Source: an uncultured Pelagibacteraceae bacterium
GTDB lineage: Bacteria; Pseudomonadota; Alphaproteobacteria; Pelagibacterales; Pelagibacteraceae
DNA: 42,407 nt
Reading direction: 5' to 3'
Assembly (NCBI GenBank): GCA_902630665.1
Contig: CACOVP010000007.1
Span: forward strand, 1-42,407
This document shows positions 13,885 through 14,991 of this stretch, one piece after another. Each line of letters opens with the position of its first letter. Position 1 is the first letter of the stretch. The notes under the pieces were generated by a model, which ran no database searches, was not told the DNA's origin, and was given only the letters and a program-made list of their open reading frames with translations. Made by a program: the position numbers and the translations under genes.

Positions 13885-14991
13885 ATGAAAAACTATTTGG
13901 ATTTTGAAAAAGAAATTAAAGAATTAGAGCAAGAAGTTGATGGATTAAAAAGCCCATTTGGTTCAGAGGGAATTTCTGAAGTTGATACAAAAAAAATTAA
14001 AGATACTCAATTTGAATTAAATCAAAAACTAGATGAAGTTTACTCAAATTTAAATAATTGGCAAAGAACACAAGTAGCCAGACATGAAGATAGACCAAAA
14101 GCTAATTTTTATATAAACAAAATTTTTTCACAATTTACTCTTCTTTCAGGAGATCGGTATTTTGGAGATGATAAATCAGTAATCGCAGGTTTTGGATTGA
14201 TAGACAACAAATCTGTTTTAGTAATTGGTCAAGAAAAAGGAGATGATTTAAACAGCAGAATAGAAAGAAATTTTGGAATGATGCGTCCAGAGGGATATAG
14301 AAAATGTATCAGATTAATGAAGCTTGCTGATAGATTTCAGATACCAGTAGTAAGTTTTATAGATACTCCAGGAGCTTTTCCAGGTTTAGGTGCCGAACAA
14401 AGAGGACAAGCGTCTGCAATAGCAAATTCAATTGAATGCTGCATGTCGTTAATGGTTCCAAATATTTCAATAATAATTGGAGAGGGAGGGTCAGGTGGTG
14501 CGATTGCTTTAGCATCATCTAATAAAGTAATTATGTTAGAAAACTCAATTTACTCAGTAATATCTCCTGAGGGATGTGCATCAATACTTTGGCGAGATCC
14601 AAGCAAATCTTTACAAGCAGCAGAAGCTATGAAGCTTACAGCTCATGATCTTTTAAAACTAAAAATTATTGATGAGGTAATTCCTGAACCTTTAGGTGGA
14701 GCCCACAGAGATCCTGAGAGTATAGCTGCTGATATTAAGCAATCAATAATTAAAAATCTAAAAGTTTTTGAAAGTTTTGGTAAACATGAAATTTTTGAAC
14801 ACAGGAAAGCTAAATTTCTTCAAATAGGAAGAGACAAAGGTTTTAGCAAATCAACTAATCTAAGCGAGGGTGGATTAAGTTATCAAGACTCAAAGTTTGA
14901 AAATTTTAAGATACACATTGATAAAAATAAATACCTATACGGTGGTTTAGGACTTGTTGCTATTGCTAGCTTAATCGCTCTTTTATCCTAG
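13885..14991 (+). CDS. accA: acetyl-CoA carboxylase carboxyltransferase subunit alpha with C-terminal membrane tail
   Basis: Residues 1-317 are a normal AccA, the subunit that with AccD transfers the carboxyl group from biotin to acetyl-CoA. Motifs include the N-terminal amphipathic helix, FIDTPGAFPGLGAEQRGQ, IIIGEGGSGGAIALA and VISPEGCASILWRD. Ordinary AccA proteins end near here. This one continues for about 51 residues: a polar linker (318-349) and then a hydrophobic Gly/Leu/Ala/Ile stretch (about 350-368) that ends the protein, looking like a tail anchor. No frameshift or second domain is seen. The promoter candidate TACTAT (13861-13866) gives a leader of about 12 bases. It is transcribed divergently from glcB. 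Confidence 0.93.
   Translation: MKNYLDFEKEIKELEQEVDGLKSPFGSEGISEVDTKKIKDTQFELNQKLDEVYSNLNNWQRTQVARHEDRPKANFYINKIFSQFTLLSGDRYFGDDKSVIAGFGLIDNKSVLVIGQEKGDDLNSRIERNFGMMRPEGYRKCIRLMKLADRFQIPVVSFIDTPGAFPGLGAEQRGQASAIANSIECCMSLMVPNISIIIGEGGSGGAIALASSNKVIMLENSIYSVISPEGCASILWRDPSKSLQAAEAMKLTAHDLLKLKIIDEVIPEPLGGAHRDPESIAADIKQSIIKNLKVFESFGKHEIFEHRKAKFLQIGRDKGFSKSTNLSEGGLSYQDSKFENFKIHIDKNKYLYGGLGLVAIASLIALLS

Follow-up and report, generated by a model that had tools for sequence, protein, structure and literature searches.

The accA locus and the layout of its product

The window, by which we mean the whole 42,407-nucleotide stretch analyzed, lies in a genome of the order Pelagibacterales (SAR11), its best genome matches being Candidatus Pelagibacter ubique HIMB058 and single-cell genomes of Pelagibacteraceae. 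It carries accA, the gene for the carboxyltransferase alpha subunit of acetyl-CoA carboxylase (ACC), which is single-copy in the source assembly (70% complete) and whose features are collected in Table 1. The encoded protein exceeds the cut-offs of three AccA family models, with 432.1 bits against a cut-off of 357 for NCBIfam NF004344, 384.7 bits against 319.3 for TIGR00513, and a score of 435.2 against 23 for Pfam PF03255. These models cover only the region from residue 1–4 to residue 315–316, leaving a tail of about 52 residues that begins at approximately residue 317 (nt 14833). Searched alone against Pfam, the last 51 residues gave no family match.

Table 1. Positions of accA and its subregions in the window.
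Feature	Position (nt)	Strand	Details and evidence
accA open reading frame	13885-14991	+	368 aa; start ATG, stop TAG
Catalytic core, carboxyltransferase alpha, residues 1-316	13885-14832	+	NF004344, TIGR00513, PF03255; Foldseek
Polar, low-confidence linker after the conserved IGR motif, residues 317-336	14833-14892	+	pLDDT <50 at 319-335; dN/dS
Short basic helix before the membrane segment, residues 337-347	14893-14925	+	AlphaFold2 helix; K/R-rich flank; net charge
Hydrophobic C-terminal helix, proposed tail anchor, residues 350-368	14932-14988	+	Kyte-Doolittle; AlphaFold2; absence of charge; substitution test
Stop codon TAG, immediately 3' of the hydrophobic segment	14989-14991	+	Reading of the open reading frame

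The tail consists of a disordered linker followed by a short basic helix and then a charge-free hydrophobic helix extending as far as the stop codon. The final segment, residues 350–368 (YLYGGLGLVAIASLIALLS), is hydrophobic and uncharged, and the best 19 residues of the tail have a Kyte-Doolittle mean of 1.89. Both the run of about 51 residues past the usual AccA end near residue 317 and the hydrophobic 19-residue terminus at about residues 350–368, as described in the initial annotation, are thus borne out by the family model boundaries and by these measurements. The Wimley-White octanol sum of the segment is −5.75, and its position-independent Hessa sum is +0.8, compared with +6.5 for the best 19-residue segment of the core. 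A scan of the whole protein revealed no other segment of comparable hydrophobicity, and among the window proteins from open reading frames of at least 100 aa, AccA is the only one that ends in a membrane-like segment without containing another. The membrane-helix call is based on hydropathy sums together with AlphaFold2.

The AlphaFold2 model, built with 35 SAR11 sequences, displays the carboxyltransferase fold with a mean pLDDT of 71, a modest value for the core that probably reflects the shallow alignment and the missing partner subunits. Its best PDB match in Foldseek is E. coli AccA (8uz2_A, E 7e-26), and 2f9i and 2f9y were also retrieved. The terminal helix is predicted at residues 349–367 with a pLDDT of ~87, separate from the core, to which it and a preceding helix at residues 337–347 are joined by a linker with pLDDT below 50 (residues 319–335). 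The likeness to canonical bacterial AccA (E. coli 2f9y/8uz2, S. aureus 2f9i) extends over the full catalytic core, residues 1–316; the canonical proteins, however, end near residue 315–320 and are tail-less, whereas SAR11 AccA has the tail. We describe the protein as a canonical AccA with a predicted built-in anchor.

The tail is found throughout Pelagibacterales and is absent from the outside sample

Searches detected AccA in 78 of the 101 genus genomes (most of these incomplete) and in 283 of 297 genomes of the order Pelagibacterales (SAR11). All 120 distinct full-length sequences examined, which cover 11 genera from the two families of the order and range from 359 to 373 aa, carry the tail and keep its hydrophobicity, with a 19-residue Kyte-Doolittle mean between 1.8 and 3.5. 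The absence of the tail from close relatives, which the initial annotation had named as refuting its claim, is therefore not seen. The hydrophobic segment is followed by a median of 0 and a maximum of 7 residues. The median Hessa sum in these relatives is −1.33, placing the source copy at the weak end of the range; with its moderate hydrophobicity (Hessa +0.8), insertion of the source segment could be weak or reversible. Assembly error or a frameshift is ruled out as the origin of the tail, which is present in many independent single-cell and isolate genomes.

The second Pelagibacterales family has a different linker (e.g., LQIGRSGLFSDKTSAAN...KYG) within the same architecture, and its linker starts in a similar way. 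Judged from the full-length sequences examined, the tail is an order-wide trait that extends beyond one genome. Because both families share the tail and, in most genera, the IGR..(G)(L)F start of the linker, a single origin on the stem of the order is most likely.

By contrast, a hydrophobic AccA tail was present in none of 99 loci inspected from other Pseudomonadota, nearly all of which end near residue 313–324, at most 15 residues from the 311-equivalent position. This sample comprises 67 loci from a search of the class, confined to the matches listed, and 32 from a wider search of the phylum, and was picked to take in nearly all listed genomes with a frame long enough for a tail, apart from a few long phylum frames such as G696 and G703 (355 aa). 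Two of the inspected proteins have extensions of another kind. A non-SAR11 alphaproteobacterial AccA (L198, G421:C1, ~74695-75645) carries a strongly basic C-terminal extension of 40 residues that ends MARRRKALKRGKSSRGRRFRSLKTLKR and is not hydrophobic, and an AccA from outside the class (L292, G691:C23, ~83363-84298) carries a polar one of 38 residues that ends GIMDKILSPIR and is likewise not hydrophobic.

Selection maintains the hydrophobic character of the terminal helix

Both dN/dS and column counts were obtained from 78 close relatives of equal length. Across the 56 closest pairs, dN/dS is ~0.03 in the core, ~0.18 in the linker (residues 317–346), and ~0.30 in the helix, and the non-synonymous rate of the tail is about six to ten times that of the core. 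Substitutions were counted by parsimony on a tree of 83 sequences. Within helix columns 350–367, 389 changes away from non-polar residues were inferred, and just 3 of them led to D, E, K, R, N, Q, or H, where ~25% would be expected by mutation; the corresponding binomial P of ~1e-43 is approximate, as parsimony ignores ancestral-state uncertainty. No such avoidance is apparent in the linker, where 91 of 370 changes led to these residues, or in the core, with 152 of 747. On these counts, the hydrophobicity of the helix is under strong purifying selection, such that the sequence drifts fast while its character is kept. The same test rules out that the segment is hydrophobic by chance.

The columns and their surroundings also bear on what the helix might do if it were not a membrane anchor. 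One alternative is that it serves as an oligomerization or docking helix, packing onto AccD, onto AccB/AccC, or onto a neighboring AccA in a carboxylase filament. Extra contacts of this sort are conceivable in that E. coli ACC forms helical assemblies, going by the title of entry 8uz2, and hydrophobicity is only moderate in some SAR11 tails, that of the source among them. Some polar positions on one face would normally be expected to persist in a packing helix, yet not one of the 1404 residues in columns 350–367 of the 78 close relatives is D, E, K, or R, so that charge is excluded all around the helix. The helix columns in these relatives moreover drift freely among I, L, V, F, A, and G, unlike a specific interface. 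The flank of the helix is just as uniform: positions 336–349 contain on average 3.7 K/R and 0.46 D/E in the 78 close relatives, and the 12 residues before the helix have a mean net charge of +3.2 that is positive in all 120 order-wide sequences, while the remainder after the helix has a net charge of ~0. This always net positive flank with a neutral far side is the pattern of a membrane helix, and we regard the packing role as unlikely.

In bacteria, a short hydrophobic C-terminus can serve as a degron. The segment might, then, be a degradation signal that sets AccA turnover without stable membrane insertion, and AccA of E. coli is in fact regulated by proteolysis (PMC12977641). A few terminal residues suffice for such a signal, however, whereas what is conserved here extends over 19 residues of charge-free helix together with a basic flank, and the last residue itself is variable (S, F, Y, N, T, or K at position 368 among the 78 close relatives); a degron is accordingly very improbable. 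That the tail is neutral read-through after loss of a stop codon, its hydrophobicity reflecting nothing more than the base composition of an AT-rich genome, can be given almost no weight, for although its high non-synonymous rate would suit this explanation and loss of a stop is plausible as an origin, it is contradicted by polar changes running ~30-fold under expectation in the helix and not in the linker, and any early stop would delete the tail, yet all 120 sequences keep it.

The membrane-anchor reading, by comparison, agrees with the sequence in several respects. A single hydrophobic segment lies at the C-terminus, the remainder behind it is short, and the flank follows the positive-inside rule; the basic flank together with the neutral far side fits the pattern of an N-in/C-out tail anchor. 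The selection on hydrophobicity, the flank charge in 120 of 120 sequences, and the AlphaFold2 helix at residues 349–367 lend support to the initial annotation, in which the terminus had been put forward as a plausible tail anchor.

Other carboxylase subunits in SAR11

No hydrophobic tail was found on AccD in translations from 13 SAR11 genomes, and AccB is encoded by frames of ordinary length (137–152 aa), an extra tail being judged here by frame length only. The N-terminus of SAR11 AccD (L228–L240) has a long basic stretch, e.g., MNWITKFIKPKIKSLFKKK, which is probably amphipathic and might also touch the membrane.

The AccD of the source genome (L239, G000:C4:60839-61702) is highly divergent, scoring 139 bits to TIGR00515, where the ordinary SAR11 form of close relatives scores ~311–320 bits (L256 and L282 compared), and it reads QSGGMAVTG in place of the SGGxRMxE of the ordinary form. 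It sits in a trpB-trpA-accD-folC locus (gene names assigned by eye), as does ordinary AccD in close relatives, and the genes flanking the divergent and the ordinary accD are ~70–95% identical. Full-length, low-scoring AccD (124–144 bits) occurs in 7 of 48 genus genomes with an AccD match, with one AccD each. The divergent accD looks like an allelic replacement, and one guess is that it may provide resistance to natural carboxyltransferase inhibitors of the andrimid/moiramide class.

Discussion

In fatty-acid synthesis, acetyl-CoA carboxylase catalyzes the step that is both committed and rate-limiting, and the bacterial enzyme is usually regarded as soluble. Our analysis suggests a different arrangement in SAR11, in which a covalent tail anchor on AccA would dock the carboxyltransferase to the inner membrane, a reading to which we assign a probability of roughly 0.8. 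The carboxyltransferase core of AccA would fold in the cytoplasm, and after the flexible linker and short positive helix would come one C-terminal transmembrane helix, which at its end would just reach the periplasmic side. Since the alpha2-beta2 carboxyltransferase contains two AccA, it would have two anchors, and the complex with bound AccD would sit on the inner membrane, the site of acyl-chain consumption, where malonyl-CoA would be made at or near the membrane. We infer membrane insertion, its route, and its effect on the enzyme from the features of the tail described above.

Bacterial tail-anchored proteins are known to insert into the inner membrane, and in E. coli constructs, moderately hydrophobic helices can do so with little help, whereas those of strong hydrophobicity depend on SRP (PMC6794478). 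The SAR11 tail might insert by either route. With bacterial tail-anchored proteins such as DjlC and Flk (PMC6794478), SAR11 AccA shares a single hydrophobic helix at the extreme C-terminus of a cytoplasmic protein without a signal peptide.

Two known systems bring the alpha subunit to a membrane by means of a separate protein. In plants (Arabidopsis), single-TM CTI proteins bind the C-terminal extension of alpha-CT and thereby fix the subunit to the plastid envelope, a docking that, according to the title of the paper, attenuates fatty-acid production (PMC7712654). The likeness lies in the use of a non-catalytic extension at the C-terminus to keep the alpha subunit at a membrane, as is proposed for SAR11. 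The plant extension, however, is a long coiled coil (residues 420–769) without predicted TM that binds the separate CTI (PMC7712654), whereas the predicted membrane helix of SAR11 lies within AccA itself, on a tail of ~52 aa. The SAR11 tail is thus not of the CTI type, which is defined by a separate envelope protein on the alpha-CT coiled coil. The second system is that of E. coli, where AccA is bound by YhcB, an inner-membrane protein for which a role in sequestering AccA during the slowdown of growth has been proposed (PMC12977641). Here the likeness is that a membrane protein (YhcB/LapD, ZapG-like, PF06295; PMC12977641, PMC12652820) contacts AccA and ties fatty-acid synthesis to the inner membrane. 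YhcB, though, is a separate protein, detected on AccA only in the transition to stationary phase, whereas the SAR11 anchor is part of AccA. A search for PF06295 detected the E. coli control and gave no match in 15 Pelagibacterales genomes. The SAR11 anchor would therefore represent a permanent covalent version of CTI docking and, perhaps, of the binding of AccA by YhcB; on the architecture predicted here, it resembles these systems in its working yet belongs to neither. Our literature search found no description of SAR11 ACC or of a tail-anchored acetyl-CoA carboxylase subunit.

On balance, we favor the broader view that in all SAR11 the heteromeric ACC is an obligate inner-membrane enzyme by virtue of a covalent AccA tail anchor that the stem lineage of the order acquired a single time and its descendants have retained. 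Such an anchor might activate the enzyme, restrain it, or do no more than set its position. If this view is correct, membrane docking of the first step of fatty-acid synthesis would be constitutive in SAR11, whereas other lineages rely on separate docking proteins that are regulated, and streamlined, very abundant ocean bacteria would fix the committed step of fatty-acid synthesis at the membrane. Plant CTI and E. coli YhcB would then be joined by a third solution, independent of both, which would point to the alpha subunit as the favored place for controlling ACC from the membrane.
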